From assembly GCA_945868575.1 (NCBI GenBank), contig CAMBMH010000014.1, positions 1 to 43,393 of the forward strand: 43,393 nucleotides of DNA, in the 5' to 3' direction. Positions 3,391 to 43,393 of the stretch are shown here, piece by piece (within the stretch, counting starts at the first letter, position 1; every line of letters starts with the position of its first letter). Made by a program: the position numbers and the translations under genes. The notes beneath the pieces were generated by a model. The model saw only the letters and a list, made by a program, of their open reading frames with translations. It was not told where the DNA came from and ran no database searches. This DNA is from Singulisphaera sp. GP187. Its GTDB lineage: Bacteria; Planctomycetota; Planctomycetia; Gemmatales; Gemmataceae.

Positions 3391-5154
3391 TCAGGAACTG
3401 CCCACCATTTCAGGTACGGGCAAAGTGATTTTTATCCTCTCACGCAACCGTTCCACATCGACTTTAACCGACGAGTGTCCAAAAGACGAAAGTGCAAGCA
3501 CACGGCGAAGTACTTCGGCTTCGGCACGATGGTCGCGCACCCTGATCCTGATCAGGGATATTCCATTTTCGGTGGTTCCCGACACATTTATGGCATAGGA
3601 TCCGCATGCTTTCCTGGCCAAATCCACAAGCGCGGAAACCGGAAGCGAAGGACTTACAGGAGGCTCAATCTCAATGGTCCCGGTGCTTCCAGCGGAGGCG
3701 GGGATCACTGTGGGTTCGGCTCCTGTTGCCGGAATTGTTGCCTTTGCGGGAACAGTTGCCACCGTTCGCGGTTTGGGAGCCATTTCCGGTTTGGAACCGG
3801 ATGCCAAGGGGCTCGGTTCGGTTCGTCCCTGGGCGACCACGCTTGTGGTCTCAGGACGAGGGTATGCCGCAACCCGGCTTCTTTCCGTGGCACCCGAATT
3901 TGCCAACTCGGCGGAAGAACGCTTTTGAACTTCGGCTTTGGGAATAATGCGAACCGAACCGGATAGCTGGAATGGTTTTCCCTGATAGGTACGCTCAATA
4001 CTGCCCAAAGGGATTTCTTCCTGGCATTTTTCAGGATTAGCGCCTTCAACGATCTCCTTTACCGGGCGCATTACGCGTCCCGATTGGGAGATCGCGACCG
4101 GGGACATTCTTTCCGTGACCGGGTGCATCCTCGTTGGGGGATTCAACGGAGTGTTGTTGATCGGTCTGGAAATTCGCGTCGCCGAAGGAGGAGCGACCTC
4201 GATCACTTGGGTTTCCCCAACATCGCCAGCATTTGGACGGGCCGGGGCGACTAATGGAACGATTTTGGCGGAAGATTCCATAGGCGAAGCGGGCGTTGCC
4301 GCTGGCGGTTCAATGGCTTTGACCGGAACAAAAACCGGGCGATCACGAAAAGCGGGATTTTCTTCCTGGAGCACCAGGACCGGGCCCATCGTTTTTTCCT
4401 GGATGCGACCGGGAAGGGAAAGATTTCCATCACTTGTGATGATGGTAACCATTTCACCATCCTGCATCATGGGGCCAACCTCACAACGGTTATCCACCGC
4501 CATGCAACCCGTTAGCCGCCTGAGACTTCTGCTTACAGAGACCTTGTCCTCATAGGAAAGGACTCTTCCGCTAACCTTGATAACACCGTCAGGATAGACT
4601 TCGTCAATGCGCAGGTCCTGGCTGAATTCGATCAATTTGTCGGCGAGGTGGCGTTCTGCTTTGGCCTGCAATTCCTGGGTGGCAACCGACGCCCGGCGGG
4701 AGGAAGGACCAACTAAAACAAGGAGTTTGTCCTTGATTGGGGTTTCCGCAAACTTTGCAGCCAGGTCGAGCGCCCGCTGCCTGTGCTGGTTTGAGGAAAC
4801 TACGCCGCGCAATTCGACTACAAACTTTTCATCTTTGCCAACGGCCTTGATACTGGGAGGCTGTGCGAAAAGGAGCGGATCCGCCAACCAGGCTAGCTCA
4901 ACCCGCAAGGCGTCAAGATGGGCGCGGGCCTCGCGCCTTGCTTTTTCGTGCTTTTGCGATTGATTTTGAAGATATTCTTTTTCGTGCGGGGACAGATCCG
5001 TTGAGCGCTCAGGATATAGTTGAACGCGACGGGCGGGTCGAGGCGCGCCTGTGTCTTCCTGGGCGTGGAGAGTGTTGTCCGAAACCAGTAAGAGTCCAAG
5101 GGGGAGTCCCGAAAGGACAATTGCACCAAGCGTTGCGTTTTTGGGTGCGCCCAT
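3391..5154 (-). CDS. Exported protein with BON-like modules, function unknown
   Basis: From ATG 5154 the protein has 587 residues. It starts with a signal peptide (MGAPK, then a hydrophobic stretch ending ...LHAQ), so it is exported. A charged helical region follows, then a mixed alpha/beta segment (RIDEVYPDGVIKVSGRVLSYEDK...) that resembles BON or secretin-like modules. A Pro/Ala/Ser/Thr-rich linker of over 200 residues leads to a C-terminal module (ALVDLARKACG...ERIKITLPVPE) with the same alpha-beta look. This is judged by eye, not by profile. An in-frame TTG at 5232 would extend the protein, but ATG 5154 directly precedes the signal peptide and has AGG upstream. It is followed by a good terminator and appears monocistronic. 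Confidence 0.7.
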   Translation of the reverse strand: MGAPKNATLGAIVLSGLPLGLLLVSDNTLHAQEDTGAPRPARRVQLYPERSTDLSPHEKEYLQNQSQKHEKARREARAHLDALRVELAWLADPLLFAQPPSIKAVGKDEKFVVELRGVVSSNQHRQRALDLAAKFAETPIKDKLLVLVGPSSRRASVATQELQAKAERHLADKLIEFSQDLRIDEVYPDGVIKVSGRVLSYEDKVSVSRSLRRLTGCMAVDNRCEVGPMMQDGEMVTIITSDGNLSLPGRIQEKTMGPVLVLQEENPAFRDRPVFVPVKAIEPPAATPASPMESSAKIVPLVAPARPNAGDVGETQVIEVAPPSATRISRPINNTPLNPPTRMHPVTERMSPVAISQSGRVMRPVKEIVEGANPEKCQEEIPLGSIERTYQGKPFQLSGSVRIIPKAEVQKRSSAELANSGATERSRVAAYPRPETTSVVAQGRTEPSPLASGSKPEMAPKPRTVATVPAKATIPATGAEPTVIPASAGSTGTIEIEPPVSPSLPVSALVDLARKACGSYAINVSGTTENGISLIRIRVRDHRAEAEVLRRVLALSSFGHSSVKVDVERLRERIKITLPVPEMVGSS

Positions 5155-5575
5155 GGTAGACCTATTTGAAATTTTGTTATGCGGCAATGGATCAGGTTTG
5201 TTCCTGGTACCCGGGATGACGAACTCTTCCAATATTTATGGAGAATTGAGATCCGGTAGTCCCGAAAGGCGACAGATTATCCGGCCAGACATCTTGATCC
5301 GCCCGGTTTGCACCTGGAAAGCCAAAAGTAAATCACCCCGCCCAAAAGTCTTTTTTGGCGATTGCCACTAGTCGGTGGAACCATTGGCAAAAGCAAAGTC
5401 GAGGTCGAAGGATTTACCATCATCTATCAAGCAAGCATCATTGTTGCCCTTGCCTTGGCACTAAAAGGTCGGAATTGGATCCCGCATCAATCAGTAACCC
5501 GGCAAGACTCGCGTCCAATGACAGGAAGCGAGGGGTCGGACGGGTGTCCGACCCGGTAAAGACCATCCAGAAGGA
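5155..5575. other. Intergenic region with one perfect hairpin
   Basis: This 421-base gap separates two minus-strand genes. It holds the upstream region of the BON-like gene and a perfect inverted repeat at 5533-5554 (GGGTCGGAC, loop GGGT, GTCCGACCC) located 22 bases beyond the stop of the lipoprotein gene. No T-run follows on either strand, so it is a possible 3' stabiliser rather than a classical terminator. I see no convincing short gene here. Confidence 0.5.
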
Positions 5576-12209: not shown

Positions 12210-12995
12210 TTACTTTGAGGGTTCTTCCTGGGTCGGCACCCAACTCATCCGGAAACGCTTGAGGCTGCCGGTTTTCGCTTTTTCACCACTTTTTTGTTCC
12301 CAGCTCGCGAGAATTTCCGGAGATTTGGCATCCAGTCGAACCGGACCACCACGGGCGACGGGGCCCATCCTGGAGGGATCCAGGACGATGCGAAAAGTCT
12401 CCCTTATGGGTTTGTTGGCTGGGCTGTCCTTCCCTTGCGCTGCTCCAAGGGCGATGGTCCAAACCTCTTCGTTTTCACCCGATTTTTGGCGAATCCAAAC
12501 CAGCTTGGAATCGCCCCTGTCCTTGGCACCCTCTTTTGAACCCTCTTTGGAGTTCACTCCGTCTCCACCTACAGATTGTGCCTTGATCGCCTCGTGCGGA
12601 AATCGAATGGTCTGAATGGGCTGGTCAACCCGCTCGATCTCCAAAACGATTTCCCCTTTGGCAGCCATTACCTTCCAGGAAAGGTTGTCAGGGCCAAGAA
12701 GAACCCAAGGGTCCTCATTTACCGGAATGGGACTTACCGCAGAGGGAATGATCCGCTCTTTGCCACGCCCGGGTCCCAGCCCCTGTCTTATCTGGAAATA
12801 CATCCATCCCGCAAAAAACCCGGTAATCATCAGTCCCATGGCAATGATTAAGAATGTGATTGTTTCCCCCTCGGGGCGACGGACTCCGGCATAGGCCCCC
12901 GGGCGGGAATGGTCGGGTGGAGAGGCTTCGTTTGGCAGGCTCATTAGGGTTGGGTCCCGGTCCGGAAATTGGGTTGAAAAGTCTGTCGGAAGCAT
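12210..12995 (-). CDS. Single-pass membrane protein, function unknown
   Basis: From ATG 12995 the product has 261 residues. A Pro-rich cytoplasmic N-terminus leads to one membrane segment at about residues 46-66 (ITFLIIAMGLMITGFFAGW). The ~190-residue remainder begins with RQGLGPGRGKERI and has WVLLGPDNLSWKV followed by beta-like strands. A Gly/Lys/Ser-rich patch (GDGVNSKEGSKEGAKD) interrupts it. I recognise no family. Another ATG at 12944 (MSLPNEA) is possible; neither start has a clear ribosome site. The gene diverges from the OPT transporter, and their upstream regions overlap within about 110-165 bases. Confidence 0.62.
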   Translation of the reverse strand: MLPTDFSTQFPDRDPTLMSLPNEASPPDHSRPGAYAGVRRPEGETITFLIIAMGLMITGFFAGWMYFQIRQGLGPGRGKERIIPSAVSPIPVNEDPWVLLGPDNLSWKVMAAKGEIVLEIERVDQPIQTIRFPHEAIKAQSVGGDGVNSKEGSKEGAKDRGDSKLVWIRQKSGENEEVWTIALGAAQGKDSPANKPIRETFRIVLDPSRMGPVARGGPVRLDAKSPEILASWEQKSGEKAKTGSLKRFRMSWVPTQEEPSK

Positions 12996-13108
12996 ACGCT
13001 TCGCCAAGTCCGCCCAAATCCCCAGAAATTCATAGATTCTTTGTAATCAGTTTAGGGGGATTGGTGCCCATTGGGCATTTGTGGAAACATTTAACGGAGC
13101 TGCCAACG

Positions 13109-15772
13109 ATGTCCGCCGATGCAGGATCGAACCGGGCCAAGTTCACGCCCTTTGTACCCGCAACCGAACAGCCTGCGGAATTTACCGCCCGGGCGCTGAT
13201 TTTGGGGACGGTGCTCGGCCTGATATTTGCCGCCTCTTCGCTTTACCTTGTGCTCAAAGTCGGGATGACCGTTTCGGCATCGATTCCTGTGGCTGTATTG
13301 GCCATCACCCTCTTCCGGGTTGCTTCCCGTTTTATTGGCGGCCCCGCCACCATCCTTGAAAACAACATCGTTCAAACCGCAGGATCCGCAGGCGAATCGA
13401 TCGCCTTTGGCGTTGGTGTCACCATGCCGGCGCTGCTCCTTCTGGGTTTCCAGATGGATATCGCCCGGGTGATGACCGTATCGCTTTTGGGTGGCCTTTT
13501 GGGAATTCTGGCGATGATTCCCCTCAGGCGCGCCTTCATCGTGCGCATGCACGGCACCCCCGGCCAACCTGGAACCCTCCTTTATCCCGAGGGAACCGCC
13601 TGCGCCCAGGTGCTGATCTCGGGCGAAAAGGGTGGCGCGACCGGCTTCACCGTGTTTATGGGCTTTGGTATCGCTTTGATTCACAAATTCGTTACCGAAG
13701 GATTTCTTCTCTTGATGGGGACCTTCAAACTCCCCCTCTCCTTCATCAACCGTGCGGCGGTTTTCTCCTCGGATATGGCGAGTGAACTTTTGGGGGTCGG
13801 CTACATCATTGGCCTTCGCACCAGTGCCATCATGATGGCGGGTGCGCTTCTCGGCTATTTGGTCATCATTCCCCTTATTGCTTTCGCGGGTGATGCAGGC
13901 GGCGCCATCGTCGCGCCTGGTCGCAAACCGATCCGGGATATGTCCATTACTGAACTGCGCAACAACTACCTCCTTTACATCGGCGCGGGTTGCGTGGCCA
14001 CGGCGGGGATCATCAGCATGATCCGAACCCTCCCCATCATCATCCGTTCCCTGGGTGGCGGTCTTCGCCGCAGAAAAGGCCAGGACGAAGGCGAAAGCTC
14101 GAATCCCGACCGGACAGAAAATGACCTCCCCATGGGGGCGGTTTTTGGTGGGGCGATTGTCTTGTTGGGTCTGCTGACCCTCTTCCTTGCGGGAGAGGTT
14201 GGCTGGACCAGCGCTATTGCGGGTGGCGCCATGGTGATTGTGTTCGGGTTCCTCTTTGTGACGGTTTCCAGTCGCCTGACAGGCGAAATCGGCAGTTCCA
14301 GCAACCCGATCTCGGGCATGACCGTCGCGACCCTGATGATCACTTGCCTCATCTTCCTTGGATTGGGCATGACCTCATCCAAAGAACGGGTTCTGGCGCT
14401 TTCGATCGCCGCGGTCGTCTGCGTCGCCGCAAGCAACGGCGGCACGACGGCCCAATCGCTCAAAACCGGGTTTCTTCTGGGCGGCACCCCACGAGCCATG
14501 CAATATGCCATTTTGATCGGGGCCCTGATCTCCGGCCTGGTTATTGGCGGAACCCTGCTTCAGTTCAACAACGCAGGAACGGTCTATTCGGGGCTGAAAG
14601 AAAATGTGCCTGAGCTGACCCTGACCCAACAAGAAATGGATCTGCTTGTCGACAAGGAAAACTATCAGGGGAAGGAATACCGGATTTTTGACACCCGCAA
14701 TGATCTCTTGACCGGGGACAAAATCGAACCTGCCCGCAAGACCCAGTTGGAGGCGATCGCGAAGGACAAGCCGGGCGCCTATCTCGTCGATCTGGAAACC
14801 CGCAAGGTTTCATTCCTCAAGGACCCTGGAATCATGGGGCAACTGGAGGTGCGCGATGATGGAAGCCGGGTCAACAGGGAGTTCGCCGCGCCCAAAACCC
14901 AGGTCATGGGAATCATCATCAATGGTGTGTTGAAGCGGGACCTCAACTGGAGCATGGTGGCGATGGGCGCGATCATCGCTTTGGTGCTCGATATGTGCGG
15001 GGTTTCGGCTTTGGCTTTTGCGGTGGGGCTTTATGTGCCAATCGCCGTTTCCGCGCCGATCTTTTTGGGTGGGCTGGTTCGCGCTGGAGTGGACAGCGTC
15101 ATGACCCGTCGCGCCCGTGGCCTTTTGGCAAACGCCCAAACGGAAGAAGAAAAGGCCGCCGCCGAACTCGAAATCCTCAAACAAACCGAAACCAGCCCCG
15201 GCGTGCTTTTGGCCTCGGGCTATATCGCCGGTGGCTCGATTGCCGGAGTTGTGCTTGCCTTCTTTGCGTTCAGCGACACCCTGCCCAAAGACCTGGCCCA
15301 ATGGCAATACCCCACCTGGACCGCCCCCCATCAGGGAACCCTGGCGGAGTTGGCTGAAATTGCAGCCAAGGAACGCCTTGGCCCAAATGCCAAACCGGAG
15401 GCGCTGAAAGCCGAGGTCGAGGAAATCATTGGTCTCAACGAGGAGGAAGGTATTCCGGCCCGTCTTGTTCCCGTTCCTGCAGGCACCAAAATCTTTGATC
15501 TGGCGGGCAAAGAGAATGAGGTCAAGGGCGCGACCACGCTGGGTCAACTGGCCCGGACCCTGGCGGGGCGCGAATATTTGGCGGGTAGCCTTCTCAAGGT
15601 GAACGCCGATAAGGGGATCAAGCTGGTTCCCGTATCGAGCATCCCCGCAGGCACCACCCTGCTCCTTCCGCAAGCCTCCTGGCCCGCCTTGGTGGCATTT
15701 GGTGGTTTGGCGCTGCTTCTGGGACTTGTGGGGTTGGGATTACTGATCCCGGCACCCAAGGAAGCCGCATAA
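13109..15772 (+). CDS. OPT family oligopeptide/metal-chelate transporter
   Basis: This 887-residue protein belongs to the OPT superfamily of proton-coupled peptide or metal-chelate importers. ATG 13109 has GGAG ten bases upstream; earlier in-frame codons belong to the divergent gene's upstream region. Many hydrophobic segments are visible, starting with ARALILGTVLGLIFAASSLYLVLKVGMTVSASIP, the OPT opening. Other typical phrases are ENNIVQTAGSAGESIAFGVG, PEGTACAQVL and NPISGMTVATLMI. Two soluble insertions are notable: ~100 residues after YSGLKENVPELTL, and ~130 residues (about 730-855) just before the last membrane helix, rich in Glu/Ala/Lys. Part of the second loop's DNA recurs at 16848-16906. 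Substrate is unknown. Confidence 0.9.
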   Translation: MSADAGSNRAKFTPFVPATEQPAEFTARALILGTVLGLIFAASSLYLVLKVGMTVSASIPVAVLAITLFRVASRFIGGPATILENNIVQTAGSAGESIAFGVGVTMPALLLLGFQMDIARVMTVSLLGGLLGILAMIPLRRAFIVRMHGTPGQPGTLLYPEGTACAQVLISGEKGGATGFTVFMGFGIALIHKFVTEGFLLLMGTFKLPLSFINRAAVFSSDMASELLGVGYIIGLRTSAIMMAGALLGYLVIIPLIAFAGDAGGAIVAPGRKPIRDMSITELRNNYLLYIGAGCVATAGIISMIRTLPIIIRSLGGGLRRRKGQDEGESSNPDRTENDLPMGAVFGGAIVLLGLLTLFLAGEVGWTSAIAGGAMVIVFGFLFVTVSSRLTGEIGSSSNPISGMTVATLMITCLIFLGLGMTSSKERVLALSIAAVVCVAASNGGTTAQSLKTGFLLGGTPRAMQYAILIGALISGLVIGGTLLQFNNAGTVYSGLKENVPELTLTQQEMDLLVDKENYQGKEYRIFDTRNDLLTGDKIEPARKTQLEAIAKDKPGAYLVDLETRKVSFLKDPGIMGQLEVRDDGSRVNREFAAPKTQVMGIIINGVLKRDLNWSMVAMGAIIALVLDMCGVSALAFAVGLYVPIAVSAPIFLGGLVRAGVDSVMTRRARGLLANAQTEEEKAAAELEILKQTETSPGVLLASGYIAGGSIAGVVLAFFAFSDTLPKDLAQWQYPTWTAPHQGTLAELAEIAAKERLGPNAKPEALKAEVEEIIGLNEEEGIPARLVPVPAGTKIFDLAGKENEVKGATTLGQLARTLAGREYLAGSLLKVNADKGIKLVPVSSIPAGTTLLLPQASWPALVAFGGLALLLGLVGLGLLIPAPKEAA

Positions 15773-35926: not shown

Positions 35927-37225
35927 CTACCCGTTGGCGCTCCACCAAATTCCCCCCGCCACAACAAGTATTCCCAACAACACAACTCCCCCAATCACAA
36001 GGATCCTGGTCGCAGAGCTAAAGGGTGGCGCTTTCCGCTTTTTCGACTTCGATTTGATGATCGTGCCATTCACCGCACCCTGCCCCTCGCGGTCCGCCCC
36101 GGATTCCCGCGTCGCCCGGATCCAGGTGAGGGCAATATCGCGAAATTCTGGAAGATCCCTCAGGGCCTGAAAAGGCCCCTCCTTGGTCCGGGATGCCCGG
36201 ATTTTCCGGTCGGAAATATTGGCTGCATCCCCAAGAAGACCCTCCTTGATGGAGCGCCTGACAGCGCCCAGCGTCCCCATTACGGAATGGACCTCCTCTT
36301 TTTCATCTTTCCAGGAAAGATACCAGGTTTCCTTCTCTCCTACGGGGGCGGGTTGCAGCTGGGATTTGCGAGTACTCCGTCCCGTCAGATCCTCAATGAA
36401 CTCGCGGCAACCTTTTGGACGAAGCATCGGGTCCGCGCTCATCGATCGCCGAATCGCCCACTCCACCCTTTCGCTGGCAAGCGGATTGAGCTCACGCACC
36501 GGAGCGAACTCGTTGTGGATCTTTCGCATCCAGGCATCAAGAGGGTTGGCAACCTTGAAAGGCGTCACCTTGGTAAGCATTGCGTAAAGGGTTGCGCCCA
36601 AACTGTAGATATCACATTTGATCGTGGCATTTTTGGCGTTTTTAAACTGTTCCGGAGCCATGAAGTGGGGGGTTCCCAATCCTCGTCCGGTGCGGGTCAA
36701 ATCGAGATCCGCAGCCTGCTCCTTGACCAGACCAAGATCCGTCAATTTGGCGATGCACTCCCCGGTTTTTTTGTCCTTGGCAATGAGAATATTGTCCGGT
36801 TTCACATCTCGGTGAATCAGGTTGTGACGATGTGCCCGGTGCAAACCCTGGGCCACCTGCGCAATAAGGCGAATCGCCTCGGTCTCGTTGAGGGGCCCCT
36901 CGCGTTCAATCATGCTCGATAGTGGCTCGCCATCGACATATTCCATGACAAGATAAGGCGAACCATCCCATTCGCCATAATCCAGAGCACGAACCACATT
37001 GGGGTGATCGATGGTGGAGGCGGCGCGAAATTCCTGCTCGAATCGCTTATGCATCACCGGATTGTCGGTAAGGTCGTTGAACATTAATTTGATGGCAACA
37101 ATTTCGCCATTTTTGTCATTGCGGGCTTTGACCACCGTGCCCATTCCGCCGTCTGCAATCTTCCCAAGGATGGCATAATGCCCAAGCCTGTCGGGGAGTG
37201 CAAAAAAGGCGCGATTAACAGCCAT
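35927..37225 (-). CDS. Membrane-anchored Hanks-type Ser/Thr protein kinase
   Basis: This 432-residue kinase has a P-loop GKIADGGMGTVVKA (21-34), catalytic lysine K46, HRDVKPDN at 138-145, and APE at 190-192. The metal-binding DFG is DLG (163-165), a tolerated change. Residues ~300-365 form a small domain (WYLSWKDEKEEVHSV ... IKEGLLG ... KEGPFQALRDLPEF) resembling GYF-like modules. A basic stretch and one membrane helix (406-427) end the protein, so the kinase domain faces the cytoplasm and only a few residues are outside. There is no extracellular sensor domain. Targets are unknown; EF-G downstream and the MCE operon upstream are merely neighbours. Confidence 0.93.
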   Translation of the reverse strand: MAVNRAFFALPDRLGHYAILGKIADGGMGTVVKARNDKNGEIVAIKLMFNDLTDNPVMHKRFEQEFRAASTIDHPNVVRALDYGEWDGSPYLVMEYVDGEPLSSMIEREGPLNETEAIRLIAQVAQGLHRAHRHNLIHRDVKPDNILIAKDKKTGECIAKLTDLGLVKEQAADLDLTRTGRGLGTPHFMAPEQFKNAKNATIKCDIYSLGATLYAMLTKVTPFKVANPLDAWMRKIHNEFAPVRELNPLASERVEWAIRRSMSADPMLRPKGCREFIEDLTGRSTRKSQLQPAPVGEKETWYLSWKDEKEEVHSVMGTLGAVRRSIKEGLLGDAANISDRKIRASRTKEGPFQALRDLPEFRDIALTWIRATRESGADREGQGAVNGTIIKSKSKKRKAPPFSSATRILVIGGVVLLGILVVAGGIWWSANG

Positions 37226-37519: not shown

Positions 37520-39199
37520 TTACCTTTGAGGGGGAACACGAAGCCCATTGGCGCTTGGAGGGTTATCCTTGATACCGCTACCAGGCCGAACGACCCCACC
37601 CAAACCAAGCGCCTCGGGGTGGCGGGCCAATTTGTCCATGAAGACCTCGGCGTTGTTCATTATGCGGGCGATTGTCGGAATCTGTTGAACTACGCCAACG
37701 AGGATCTGGTCGATTCGATAGTAAACCGTCGGATCATTAAGAAATTTTTTGAGGGCGCCTTCCCCTTCGGTAAGTCCCTTGAAAAGACCCTTGACCTCGG
37801 AAATAAAATCGTTGATGTTCACCACCGCTTCGTCCACATCCCGCAGGATCATACCAACACGGGCCCCGGATGCTCCGACCGGCGTTCCGCCGGGAGTTGT
37901 GGGACCGGGTGTGGCTGCACCGGTTGAAGCACGGGGACTGGGGAAGGTTGTTGCCGGAGTATTGGCCTGGTTTTGCGAAGTGGTGATCGCGGGCACACCT
38001 CCCCCGGACGCGCTTCCAAACCCTGTGGGTCTGGTGTTGGAAGCAATCACACCTGGCATGTAGCTACCCGGAGTGGTTCCACCCGGATAATTGGGAAGCG
38101 CGCCAAGAGGCCTTGGAGCTGATGCCCTTGCACCCCCCCGAGCCTTGGCCGGATCGGCCGTCTCGTCCAGTTGGCGGGTGAATTGCACAAACCATTTGAC
38201 AACTTCCTGGACTTCTTGCGAAACATCCAAAAGGTTTTGGGCCATACCGTCAAAGCGATCGCTTGCTTTTTTGCTGTTTTTAAGGATCGCCGCTATCTGC
38301 TTTTGGTTGTCATCGTTTAGGACATTGCCGATGCGGTTGATGGTTTCGCTGGTATTGTCAATGGTTTTGCTCAATTTATCCGAGTTTTGTTGAACAAATC
38401 GGTCAAGGCGCTCTGCGGTGCCACCAATCTGTCTGGCCGCCGCGCTGATGTCGCCTCCGATTTTGTCGATATCCTTGAATGTCGCTGTCGCCGCTTTCGC
38501 GGTTTCCCGAATATCGGCAACGCCCTTTTCAAAGCTTGCCTGCAACTTGGGCAAGGCTTCATTGGCCTGCTTGCCAAATTTTTCATACTCCTTGAATGTT
38601 GCCAACGCCCCATCCTTTAACTCCGGGACCGCAGCACGCACATCTTTGGCCAGGTCCCTTACCTCCTTCAGCGACTCAGTCAAAAGCGGCGACAACTTTT
38701 CAAGTTTTTGCAAAGATTTGCGCATCTCGTCAAGGGCTTCCTGTGTGGAGGGAACCACTGCGGAGGCACCCTGCAACAGCGAGTTCACCGTCGCGGCCCG
38801 GCGCCCTTCCACGACGGACCCAATCTCCAGAATATCCCGCTCCTTGATATCCGAATCGGGGGTCAGATCAATCGTCGCGTCATTGGCCAAAAGCCCGGTG
38901 GAAAGGGTGGGAACCTCGTGCCTGCGAAGCTTGAATGGATTGATCAGCGAGAACCGTACAAGGACCGCTCCGGTTTCCTCCTCGAGTTCAAGACCGGTGA
39001 CTTGCCCCACCCTTACGCCCGAACGGCGCACAGGAGTTCCGTTCGAAACTCCCGGGGCGTCATTGAATTTGGCGTAATAGTTATCCCCTTTTTCCCAAAT
39101 ATGGGGCATGGTCCCAAAGAGAATGATCATGAAGGCCATCAAAACAGCCCCACCCATCACTACCAGGCCCAATTGCAAACGCATTGTATTTATGCTCAT
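37520..39199 (-). CDS. mlaD: MCE/MlaD-family lipid-transport protein with long coiled coil
   Basis: This 559-residue protein has one N-terminal membrane helix (LQLGLVVMGGAVLMAFMIILFG) and an MCE domain (YYAKFNDAPGVSNGTPVRRSGVRVGQV) up to about residue 115. A heptad-like helical region of ~200 residues follows, then a Gly/Pro/Thr/Ala-rich linker and a helical C-terminal end (VGMILRDVDEAVVNINDF ... LARHPEALGLGG). MCE proteins form hexameric rings that carry phospholipids across the periplasm. It is far longer than E. coli MlaD (~180 residues), closer to tube- or needle-forming MCE proteins. ATG 39199 is 2 bases after the ATPase stop, so it is translated from the same mRNA. Confidence 0.92.
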   Translation of the reverse strand: MSINTMRLQLGLVVMGGAVLMAFMIILFGTMPHIWEKGDNYYAKFNDAPGVSNGTPVRRSGVRVGQVTGLELEEETGAVLVRFSLINPFKLRRHEVPTLSTGLLANDATIDLTPDSDIKERDILEIGSVVEGRRAATVNSLLQGASAVVPSTQEALDEMRKSLQKLEKLSPLLTESLKEVRDLAKDVRAAVPELKDGALATFKEYEKFGKQANEALPKLQASFEKGVADIRETAKAATATFKDIDKIGGDISAAARQIGGTAERLDRFVQQNSDKLSKTIDNTSETINRIGNVLNDDNQKQIAAILKNSKKASDRFDGMAQNLLDVSQEVQEVVKWFVQFTRQLDETADPAKARGGARASAPRPLGALPNYPGGTTPGSYMPGVIASNTRPTGFGSASGGGVPAITTSQNQANTPATTFPSPRASTGAATPGPTTPGGTPVGASGARVGMILRDVDEAVVNINDFISEVKGLFKGLTEGEGALKKFLNDPTVYYRIDQILVGVVQQIPTIARIMNNAEVFMDKLARHPEALGLGGVVRPGSGIKDNPPSANGLRVPPQR

Positions 39200-39201
39200 G
39201 T

Positions 39202-41160
39202 CTACGACTCCCCAGGCGTGGCAGGCGGCGGAATATCATTGTCGGAGGATCCACTTTCGGAAGCCCCATCCCCTAGGGGTGGTTCTTCGGCCGATTGCAG
39301 ATCGGATTCGGCGTAAGGCTCGAAAGGGTCAATCGGTTCCGATTGGGGAAGTGGTTCTTCAAGCACCATGGAATCGGTCAAAGGTTCCAGTGAAATGGAG
39401 GGAGGGTCGCCAAAATCCTCTCCTTCCTCTTCGCCCGGTTCATTCAGGTCGATTTCCCCATCCTCGGCAAACTCTTCATCTTCGTCTTCAAAGTCTTCCC
39501 CGGTTTCCGCCTCTTCCCCGGTTGTTGGCACTTCCTCATTTGCTGATTCTTCAAGGGTTTCTTCCCGCGCTTCCAATTGAGCTTCCGCGGGTTCATGGTG
39601 CGAACCCGTCTCCTGATCCAAAGGTTCATCCACGCGAAAGATATTATCTTCAAATGAACTACGCAAGTAGACAAAAGGGGAATCCACTTCCTCATCAGGT
39701 TCGGGAATTGGTTCCGGGGGCGGTGCAGGAAGCGCTTTCAGGAAATCTTCTCCCATTTCCCATGCGTATGCAATTGCCGGAGGCACAAGAAGCATCAAGG
39801 ATTTACCTGGCGGTTGCTCCATCCCTTCGGGTGTCACATCCAGGGTCTTCGCCTCCACATCAATTTCAGACGGGACTCTGGGCGCCGGAACCAAAACAGT
39901 TTCGGGTTCCTTTTTGAGAAACTCCTCACCCAATTCCCATTGAAATTGTCGAGGTTTGGCCGCGAGCATCACCAGGGTTCGTCCGGGGATTTGGCGCATC
40001 GCCAAAGGCGCAACATCGACGCAACTCGACTGGATTTCACGATCTGAAAGGATTCTTGGTTCAGGCGGTGGCGGCGGCTCGGGCTTGAGAAATTCTTCTC
40101 CTTGTTCCCAGGGAAGGCGTCGGGCCCGCGAAGCCAGTGTCACCGCCATTCGACCTGGAATGGATCGGATCGCATCCGGAGCAACTGCAAAAGTGGCTGC
40201 CTCTACATCGATTTGGGCGGGAACCAATGGCACTGCCGTGGGGAAACCTTGGGAGTTTGCGGCATCAACCACCGGGGCAATTCTTGGTGGATCGATCCAG
40301 CGAAGTGTCGAATCGGTATCAGGGGAAAACGCGCTTTCTCCCTTGCCTTGCGCATCTCCCTGGATGAAGCGCTGCACGCGGGGATCGGGATGCGCCATGA
40401 ATTCATCTACGGTCCCATCAAAAAGGATCTGGGAGTCCCTTGAATCCAGATTCGCCAGGGCGCTTAGCATGATTACCCGATCGGCAACTTTTCGCACCGT
40501 TCGCATTTCATGCGTAACGAGGATCGCTGTTATCCCCAAATCACTGCGGACCTTGAGGATCAGGTCGTTGATCATGTCTGTCATGATCGGGTCAAGGCCG
40601 GTCGTCGGCTCATCGAACAGCATGAACTCGGGATTGAGGGCCAGCGCCCTTGCCAACCCTACGCGCTTTCTCATCCCGCCTGATAGTTCCGCGGGAAATT
40701 TATCCGCGACACCCGGGGAAAGGCCCACATCGGAGAGCATCTTGCCAATGATCGGGAGAATATCCTTCTCGGGAAGGATCCCCTGGGCGCGCAGACCAAA
40801 AGCAATGTTGTCAGCAACCGACATCGAGTCAAAAAGCGCCGCCGCCTGAAACAGGAATCCGAAGTGACGCCTGAGAAAAGACTGCTCGCGGCTGTCCATC
40901 GCTGCGATGGATTTGCCCCGAAATACGACCTGTCCCTGCGTCGGAGCCAAAAGGCCAATAAGCAATTTCAGAAGTGTGGTTTTTCCACAACCCGATTCTC
41001 CCACAATCGCCACGGTTTCACGGCGTTTGAGCGTAAGATTGATCCCCCTAAGGATCTGTTGATCTCCCAACTTTAGGCCGACACCTTCAAAACGAACATC
41101 CTCAGACGGTTGGGAGGATGATCCGATGAGGGATATCAGGGGTGGAAAAAGGGTTGTCAT
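39202..41160 (-). CDS. mlaF: MlaF-like ABC ATPase with unusual triple-repeat and acidic extension
   Basis: From ATG 41160 the protein has 652 residues. Residues 20-270 are a complete MlaF-type ATPase: Walker A GESGCGKTT (54-62), signature LSGGMRKRVGLARA (159-172), Walker B MLFDEPTTGLDP (180-191), and switch histidine in VTHEM. It energises lipid transport by the MlaE permease. Residues 271-652 are extra. Three related segments lie at ~316-359, 375-418 and 432-476, each with a PGR/PGK-x-[LM] core and W-E-x-G-E-[ED]-F-L-K at the end. Pro-rich linkers join them, and a Glu/Asp-rich tail (~480-650) follows. I know no such extension in MlaF. A hairpin covers the position of its ribosome site. Confidence 0.93.
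   Translation of the reverse strand: MTTLFPPLISLIGSSSQPSEDVRFEGVGLKLGDQQILRGINLTLKRRETVAIVGESGCGKTTLLKLLIGLLAPTQGQVVFRGKSIAAMDSREQSFLRRHFGFLFQAAALFDSMSVADNIAFGLRAQGILPEKDILPIIGKMLSDVGLSPGVADKFPAELSGGMRKRVGLARALALNPEFMLFDEPTTGLDPIMTDMINDLILKVRSDLGITAILVTHEMRTVRKVADRVIMLSALANLDSRDSQILFDGTVDEFMAHPDPRVQRFIQGDAQGKGESAFSPDTDSTLRWIDPPRIAPVVDAANSQGFPTAVPLVPAQIDVEAATFAVAPDAIRSIPGRMAVTLASRARRLPWEQGEEFLKPEPPPPPEPRILSDREIQSSCVDVAPLAMRQIPGRTLVMLAAKPRQFQWELGEEFLKKEPETVLVPAPRVPSEIDVEAKTLDVTPEGMEQPPGKSLMLLVPPAIAYAWEMGEDFLKALPAPPPEPIPEPDEEVDSPFVYLRSSFEDNIFRVDEPLDQETGSHHEPAEAQLEAREETLEESANEEVPTTGEEAETGEDFEDEDEEFAEDGEIDLNEPGEEEGEDFGDPPSISLEPLTDSMVLEEPLPQSEPIDPFEPYAESDLQSAEEPPLGDGASESGSSDNDIPPPATPGES
39733..40215 (-). 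repeat. Three-copy protein repeat in the MlaF extension
   Basis: The DNA encodes three similar segments of about 44-45 residues, starting 57-59 residues apart. Shared positions are a V-x-P around residue 10-14, I/Q-P-G-[RK] near 20, a hydrophobic strand [LM][AVM][VML]xL, and W-E-x-G-E-[ED]-F-L-K at the end. Copies 1 and 3 share the opening IDVEA. Linkers between copies are Pro-rich. Confidence 0.85.
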
Positions 41161-41168
41161 GGTTTGGT

Positions 41169-41184
41169 GCCCGGTTAACCGGGC
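41169..41184. promoter_or_regulatory. Perfect 16-bp palindrome at the mlaE-mlaF junction
   Basis: GCCCGGTTAACCGGGC is a perfect palindrome; as RNA it gives a six-pair GC stem with TTAA loop. It contains the mlaE stop codon (TAA) and ends 8 bases before the mlaF ATG, covering the region where a ribosome site should be. Ribosomes ending mlaE would open it, which suggests translational coupling. Confidence 0.55.
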
Positions 41185-42020
41185 CAGATGACTCCGTGAA
41201 GGCGGTTGGCAAAAAACGAAAGGAAAAAGTCGAGCACCAGGATGGCGATAAAGGAGAGAACGAAGGAGACCGTCGATGCGGCGCCAACTCCCGTAGCGCC
41301 CTTGCCCGCATGGAAACCCTGATGACACGCAATGAGGGCGATGCTGCCTCCAAACACCATCGGCTTGACCAATCCGACCCCAAGGTCCCAAAAGTGGATA
41401 TGGTTTTTGGAATTTTCCCAGTAGTGATGGGGTTCAATTCCATAAAGCTGGGTTGTGACCAGCGCACCACCCATGATCCCCATGAAATTCGCCAGAGTGG
41501 TTAGGACCGGGATCATGAAAAGACAGGCAAGGAATCTGGGAACCGCGAGGTATTTGATGGGTGAAGCCCCAAGACAAATCAGGGCTTCGAGCTGCTCGGA
41601 AATTTTCATGGTGGCAAGCTCCGCCGCCATGGCGCCCCCCACACGACCTGCAAGCATCGAAGCGGCGAGCACCGGTCCGAGTTCGACAATCACAGACTTG
41701 TTGACCATCATTCCGAGGCTTGTGGCCATACCCAGGCGCGCAAATTCGGCATAAGCCTGGACCGCAAGGACCATTCCGATGAACAGTCCGGTAAGAGCCA
41801 CCACCGGCAAGCTTCGAACGCCCACTTCATAGAAGATGGGCACCATCGAACCCCGCATGGGGCGGCTGAAACATTGGCCAAAAACCTGGAAACAAAAAAG
41901 TGCGAAATCGCCTATCTGTTCGATAAAACCGACGGGAGGCTGGGCACCTAACCCCTGGGCGGGAGGCTGGTTTTTGGTGTCCGTGGCGGGACGAATCGAA
42001 GCGGTCGCCTCACTTGACAT
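41175..42020 (-). CDS. mlaE: MlaE-family ABC transporter permease
   Basis: This 281-residue permease has five or six hydrophobic segments and the family signature ELGPVLAASMLAGRVGGAMAAELATMKISEQLEAL, including the EQ coupling element that contacts the ATPase. Other parts are VVALTGLFIGMVLAVQAYAEF and a C-terminal FVLSFIAILVLDFFLSFF. It forms the inner-membrane channel of the lipid transporter. ATG 42020 has GGGAGG 11 bases upstream; an in-frame TTG at 42026 is five bases from the same site and may be the real start. It is the first gene of the operon. Confidence 0.95.
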   Translation of the reverse strand: MSSEATASIRPATDTKNQPPAQGLGAQPPVGFIEQIGDFALFCFQVFGQCFSRPMRGSMVPIFYEVGVRSLPVVALTGLFIGMVLAVQAYAEFARLGMATSLGMMVNKSVIVELGPVLAASMLAGRVGGAMAAELATMKISEQLEALICLGASPIKYLAVPRFLACLFMIPVLTTLANFMGIMGGALVTTQLYGIEPHHYWENSKNHIHFWDLGVGLVKPMVFGGSIALIACHQGFHAGKGATGVGAASTVSFVLSFIAILVLDFFLSFFANRLHGVIWPG

Positions 42021-42748
42021 GGCCAATTCGGCCTCCCAAGCTTCCTTGCAAACCTTTCCGGCCCAAGCGTGGAAAGGGTGGGATGGTTCGCCTCCTGGCG
42101 GGCAGATCCCACTTTCGCATCGACCAAAGGAAGGGACGGGGTGGAAGAAAGATCAACCCGGCACCCCGGCCAAGGGGTTAAGGACTACAGGCTGTACCGG
42201 TTTTGAGGGAAAATCAGATTGAGGCTTCGCAAAGGGCCCCACCTTGCGACAAGGCAAACCTCCCCGAAACGGTCCAACTGTCAATTTGGGAAGACTGCCG
42301 GGATTTTACCGAACTTTCAGCCCAAAAGCGTCAACCGGAATGCTTTTTCGTTCCAAATACCAAAGTGTCCGGGATGGTCGGTTTTTTTGGCTTTTCAATT
42401 CTCCTGATTTTCCAAGGTATGAATCCAATACCCGGCCTACTTCAGGCACATGTGTTTTGCGATATTTTTTAAACGCGCAAGAAAATGAAAATTTACTACC
42501 GTCGATCCCTAAACCAAAGCCTACCAACCAAACCAAAATCCCAAAAAATTTTCCAAATCATTTTCCGGCGCAATTCCACCCTTCAAGCTCCTTAGTAATA
42601 AGCCATTTCCGCTTATTTTCTACCCTCAACATACTCGATGGATTTTGAGGTTTTTTCCTAATCTACCGTGGCTTAAGATGGACGAAGAAACTTCCGACCC
42701 ATAGGCTCTCTCACAACATCTCTCCATGTCTTTCATCTCGGAGCCCCC
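42021..42748. other. Divergent intergenic region, 728 bases
   Basis: This gap holds the promoters of the mla-like operon (minus) and the large extracellular protein (plus). Short open frames on both strands lack ribosome sites and protein-like composition. A weak plus-strand terminator-like structure is at 42624-42656 (CCTCAA, 15-base loop, TTGAGG, TTTTTT), which could end an unseen short transcript. No tRNA or known RNA was recognised. Confidence 0.4.
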
Positions 42749-43393
42749 ATGTCCTCCCGAGTTATTTTCTTCGTTCGTTGGTTTCGCAAGTTTTTTCGCC
42801 CTGTTTCCCAGATTTTCAAGTCTTCTCCGCTTGCCCTGGAATCTTTGGAAACACGGCTTGTTCCTGATGGCCAGGGGTTCTCGCAACTTCTGCCCCAATG
42901 GAGCGGGAATAACTGGCTCAATCCCCCGGCCTCCGTCGCGCCTCTTGCCTCCAACACCGTTCTTGTTTCCCTTGTGGCACCCTCGCCTCCTTCCTCCGGA
43001 CCGGGTTCCGTTCCTTCCTCCTTTTCCAATTTCAACTATCCGACTACTCTTCAATCCGCCACAGTAACCCCCACTCTGACCACATCTATCCTCTCCGGCA
43101 TTTACCAGCGTCACTACACGCTCAACGCCCAAACCCCCGCCACTTCTTCCACACCTTCAGGGCAGGTTTTCCTGGATGTGCAAATGGTATCCGCAGTCCA
43201 ATTCGGCGTCACTTCCGTCACCGAATCCGGAACCCTGACGGTTTCCCAAACCGTCCTGCAAAACGGAACCCTGATCAGCCAAATCGTGGCTTCCGTGATT
43301 CCGTTTTCCCAAACCGAACCCACGCGACCGTCAATCAAAAGCCTCGAAAAAATGCCCCTGGGAATCAAACACTCCCTCCAAGCGGCCACCCTG
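42749..43393 (+). CDS. Large extracellular protein, N-terminal part (runs off the window)
   Basis: An open frame from ATG 42749 continues without stop to the end of the window (215 codons). The N-terminus is basic and aromatic (VIFFVRWFRKFFRP), followed by LALESLETRLVP. The LE-x-LE-x-R-x-x-P element after a basic region is the recognised N-terminal mark of very large planctomycete extracellular proteins. The rest so far is rich in Ser, Thr, Pro, Val and Gln with alternating beta-like strands (VFLDVQMVSAVQFGVTSVTESGTLTV). No ribosome site is obvious, and the first ~20 codons could have an alternative start. Function and length cannot be known from this piece. Confidence 0.8.
   Translation, partial: MSSRVIFFVRWFRKFFRPVSQIFKSSPLALESLETRLVPDGQGFSQLLPQWSGNNWLNPPASVAPLASNTVLVSLVAPSPPSSGPGSVPSSFSNFNYPTTLQSATVTPTLTTSILSGIYQRHYTLNAQTPATSSTPSGQVFLDVQMVSAVQFGVTSVTESGTLTVSQTVLQNGTLISQIVASVIPFSQTEPTRPSIKSLEKMPLGIKHSLQAATL

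Follow-up and report, generated by a model that had tools for sequence, protein, structure and literature searches.

Why does the ATPase of an otherwise ordinary MlaEFD transporter continue for hundreds of residues past the end of its core, and what might the three related units within that addition do? We address this question for a window of 43,393 nt from Singulisphaera sp. GP187 (the whole stretch of DNA that was analysed), in which mlaF lies between mlaE and mlaD, all three genes nearly touching on the minus strand and mlaD starting 2 nt past the mlaF stop:

37520..39199, minus strand: mlaD, MCE-domain protein, 559 aa (Pfam MlaD, 8.6e-12)
39202..41160, minus strand: mlaF, MlaF-type ABC ATPase, 652 aa with its C-terminal extension (ORF, Pfam/NCBIfam, start backed by congener alignment)
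40357..41160, minus strand: ABC ATPase core of MlaF, residues 1-268 (Pfam, motifs, AF2)
41175..42026, minus strand: mlaE, MlaE permease, 283 aa as listed from TTG (Pfam MlaE, 4.5e-72)

The mlaF reading frame runs uninterrupted from the ATG at 41160 to the stop at 39202-39204, and a congener protein likewise opens at the matching ATG (M-x-T-L-x-P-P-L); a longer alternative ORF, with a TTG start at 41391, overlaps mlaE. Everything expected of an MCE-transporter ATPase was found in the core, namely a Pfam ABC_tran domain (residues 37-187, 1.2e-33), Walker A (GESGCGKT, 54-61), the signature (LSGGM, 159-163, with the methionine noted for Mla/TGD-type ATPases; PMC7367683) and Walker B (LFDEP, 181-185), and its neighbours are, by Pfam, an MlaE permease and an MlaD MCE protein. 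The top NCBIfam model for the protein is MlaF (NF008809) at 182.4 bits, under the curated cut-off of 441 bits, which makes this an MlaF-type ATPase that lies outside that equivalog. The core ends at D-P-R-V-Q-R-F-I-Q-G near residue 268 and the MlaF-like match reaches ~273, in agreement with an earlier note on this DNA that had placed the end of the ATPase domain by ~270; 382 residues then remain. The locus is a standard mlaE-mlaF-mlaD transporter whose ATPase has gained a genus-specific C-terminal extension. Elsewhere in the window, MlaD carries a ~90-residue Gly/Pro/Ser/Thr-rich stretch ahead of its C-terminal part (37520-39199, minus strand), with a comparable stretch in the congeners, and on the plus strand 42749-43393 holds the start of a possible secreted protein, its N-terminus containing LESLETRLVP, that runs off the window end.

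The 382 residues divide as follows:

39205..40350, minus strand: C-terminal extension, residues 271-652 (genus-restricted, no family match, low AF2 pLDDT)
40288..40305, minus strand: LRWIDP element, residues 286-291 (LRWIVP in a congener; alignment)
40084..40218, minus strand: repeat unit R1, residues 315-359, ending WEQGEEFLK (repeat alignment)
39913..40044, minus strand: repeat unit R2, residues 373-416, ending WELGEEFLK (repeat alignment)
39736..39870, minus strand: repeat unit R3, residues 431-475, ending WEMGEDFLK (repeat alignment)
39361..39630, minus strand: acidic region, residues 511-600, net charge -36, largely specific to this species (composition, alignment)
39352..39375, minus strand: DSMVLEEP peptide, residues 596-603, identical in all three species (alignment)

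We confirmed that the extension with three related units is real. The units share the broad outline V-x-V-[A/T]-P ... P-G ... W-E-x-G-E-[E/D]-F-L-K and align gap-free inside except for one residue at the R2 start; the end motifs read, on the minus strand, WEQGEEFL at 40110-40087, WELGEEFL at 39939-39916 and WEMGEDFL at 39762-39739. The three segments of ~45 residues described in the earlier note are borne out by pairwise Smith-Waterman scores of 109, 94 and 97, where 2000 shuffles per pair reached 49 at most; R1 compared with the remaining extension also scores 109, and 1000 local shuffles of it reached no more than 44. The linkers that join the units are indeed rich in proline, at 7 of 13 and 4 of 14 residues. 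At the DNA level the repeats are 52-55% identical, and residues that are the same are encoded by different codons at 12 of 21, 11 of 19 and 10 of 16 sites, as raw counts. With over half of the identical residues on different codons, the duplication looks old and the motif looks to have been kept. The strongly acidic tail, also pointed out in the earlier note, holds as a description of residues 511-600, but that tract falls mostly in an alignment gap against the two congeners, so it cannot be counted among the conserved elements of the extension.

If the extension were an assembly artefact or chimera, it should be missing from close relatives. We reject this explanation, as the extension is present in two separately recorded congener MAGs: a complete MlaF of 576 residues with a 306-residue extension in G069, and in G070 a 247-residue MlaF piece cut by the contig end, with its core outside the contig. 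Both congeners carry two units each, the second (unit B) a degenerate copy. A scan of 84,980 species genomes (GTDB r220 contigs), seeded on two peptides and perhaps not including the window's own genome, returned matches to the extension in these two congeners only (Gemmataceae MAG isolate Baikal-deep-G173 and Planctomycetia MAG F1-80-MAGs058). A comparable tail was absent from all 97 other Gemmatales and planctomycete MlaF loci compared, so that the same repeats, sought in other planctomycete MlaF proteins as the earlier note had proposed, turned up in the two congeners and at none of the loci beyond the genus. The stretch past the D-loop measures 460 and 384 residues in this genus, against 75-118 residues in 67 of 68 other family and order loci (L008-L035, L068-L107); the exception, G033, has 153 residues with an end unlike the others. 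At 29 further planctomycete loci the stretch is at most 158 residues long and holds none of the repeats. Profile searches with the units gave convincing E-values at one locus per genome in the genus and, across 392 genomes of the phylum, weak matches alone (best E 0.002 per genome). No repeats, the bare motif included, were found elsewhere in this genome, and at the DNA level the bare motif had one match in G070 (C26). From these sequence comparisons, the extension is confined to this genus.

Two further observations belong to this comparison. Here an OPT-family transporter lies at 12860-15772 (plus strand), whereas in both congeners an apparent OPT transporter gene is found near mlaEFD, which points to a probable rearrangement of gene order inside the genus. 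A planctomycete MlaF in another genome (L138, G102:C55, around 4804-5538) has a different, four-cysteine C-terminal addition (CANPGC...CC) that looks like a small zinc-ribbon-type end.

A tail of this kind could be a weakly constrained spacer, a disordered addition of little functional weight, lengthened by duplication along the stem of the genus. Consistent with such a spacer, G000 and G069 share 33% identity in the extension as opposed to 77% in the core, and the length, charge and unit number of the extension are all variable. However, conservation within it is uneven: in the comparison of G069 with G070, identity is 74% for unit A, 40% for unit B and 80% for the DSMVLEEP stretch, with 25-26% for two linkers, and the shared part of the extension has a dN/dS of about 0.43 (0.37/0.86). 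Low overall identity together with high identity of short pieces indicates an extension that changes fast as a whole while a few short pieces are held. Furthermore, the tail is retained in all three species though other genera stop after the core, and we regard the spacer as quite unlikely.

What, then, are the conserved pieces? The units gave no significant match in Pfam, NCBIfam, PHROGs or PDB sequences, nor did the whole 382-residue extension in Pfam, NCBIfam or PHROGs. A known domain for the repeats is rejected on these searches, and the description of them as repeats of an unknown kind holds.

Their position in a locus with no adjoining MlaB had raised the possibility that the repeats functionally replace this STAS protein, sitting at its site on MlaF in a stabilising or regulatory role. 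E. coli MlaF association is described as requiring MlaB (PMC7367683), and no STAS gene was seen beside mlaEFD in the window, nor does the operon include the STAS-domain MlaB gene of an MlaFEDB system. The statement that no MlaB is encoded here fits the window, although the genome does have STAS_2 genes on other contigs (C100, C12, C64). Among the family STAS_2 matches listed, read by eye against the mlaF loci, none lies near mlaF, and these relatives also have short tails; because they do without both a nearby STAS gene and the extension, a missing MlaB does not explain the extension. In a published survey, moreover, MlaB is sparsely distributed and MlaEFD is the ancestral core (PMC10665443), and the units resemble neither STAS nor any other domain. 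Replacement of MlaB is accordingly disfavoured, and we consider it very improbable.

The structure prediction suggested in the earlier note, run here on the single chain with 46 sequences, gave high pLDDT for the core (84-98 by blocks, from about residue 21) and low pLDDT for the extension (28-53 by blocks, with three sequences in its alignment). A single unit, modelled with seven copies as alignment, reached a mean pLDDT of 65 with a short, low-confidence helix at the W-E-x-G end. The AF2 models give no backing for a stable independent fold, and the extension alignment is too thin to exclude one. TOP-IDP composition (0.10-0.16 for the units, order-like; 0.40-0.62 for the linkers, disorder-like) suggests order-prone units within disorder-prone linkers.

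Extensions in this place are known from two studied ATPases, both of which contact the neighbouring protomer as described (PMC7367683, PMC9882608). The main rival to our preferred reading is an enlarged C-terminal 'handshake' of the MlaF/MceG type, in which the units would wrap around the partner MlaF within one dimer, docking there and stabilising the ATPase dimer on MlaE. The E. coli MlaF extension in MlaFEDB belongs to the same ATPase family, sits in the same place right after the ABC core and is non-globular; it is described as ~25 residues of extended coil and a short helix with three hydrophobic docking residues, which assembly requires and for which GCN4 dimerisation can partly substitute (PMC7367683). 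Mycobacterial MceG of Mce1, another MCE-transporter ATPase, has a long C-terminal extension built from ordered pieces and flexible linkers; its function requires this extension, which touches the other protomer (PMC9882608). The extension studied here likewise starts exactly where MlaF cores end, past D-P-R-V-x-x-F-x-x-G, and W-E-x-G-E-E-F-L is akin in kind to the short acidic-hydrophobic ends of some other planctomycete MlaF tails (EFYADLLNL).

The differences are considerable, however. The E. coli extension has one docking helix and acts with MlaB (PMC7367683), whereas this genus has 306-382 residues, two or three units, no adjoining MlaB gene and a conserved DSMVLEEP; MceG is set apart by its published description, which gives ~120 helical residues and, as far as it goes, mentions no repeats (PMC9882608). 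Other Gemmatales and Planctomycetota MlaF proteins (L009, L016, L025, L123-L125) are MCE-transporter ATPases as well, with core identity of about 50-58%, but end shortly past the core, and family relatives manage without this extension or a canonical-looking one. Since one docking helix per protomer is enough in E. coli, three copies need another reason. Genus-specific core substitutions are also no denser in the helical subdomain (6 of 70 positions) than overall (22 of 253), and we reject them as a docking footprint; a small group of them falls at residues 203-214. Overall, we hold the enlarged handshake to be somewhat unlikely, though less so than the spacer.

We tentatively prefer to see the extension as a flexible, mostly disordered, multivalent docking arm, attached at the cytoplasmic face to an MlaEFD transporter that is ordinary in other respects. 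Repeated units, a copy number that varies between two and three among species (as in multivalent tails), disordered linkers and a conserved end peptide fit such an arm better than a single handshake. Each unit would be a small binding module, ordered at least partly on contact, with its W-E-x-G-E-E-F-L end forming a short amphipathic helix. The ATPase being dimeric, each transporter would expose four to six units to the cytoplasm. Avidity would hold a partner, probably another transporter nearby or a protein of the cytoplasm, and ATP-driven transport would proceed by the usual MlaEFD chemistry. Partner, binding and helix formation alike are inferred here. Against the docking arm stand the low confidence of the AF2 models, whose extension part is built on three sequences, the degeneration of unit B in the congeners, and the occurrence of the repeats at one locus per genome, which provides no link from the repeats to another protein.

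Downstream of mlaD, a Ser/Thr kinase gene (35927-37225, minus strand) encodes a C-terminal hydrophobic segment. As a candidate partner this kinase was rejected, being next to mla in neither congener.

In E. coli and mycobacteria, assembly or function is known to depend on the C-terminal extensions of MCE-transporter ATPases, and the units described here constitute an uncatalogued sequence family. It is possible, if rather speculative, that in one planctomycete genus a new short repeat module lets an MCE lipid transporter serve as a multivalent scaffold that would recruit a partner from the cytoplasm, such as a lipid-metabolism enzyme or a cytoskeletal or regulatory protein. A long, repeat-built extension in a lineage with no adjacent MlaB gene would offer a natural experiment on how ATPase and permease are held together, or on which partners such ATPases recruit.
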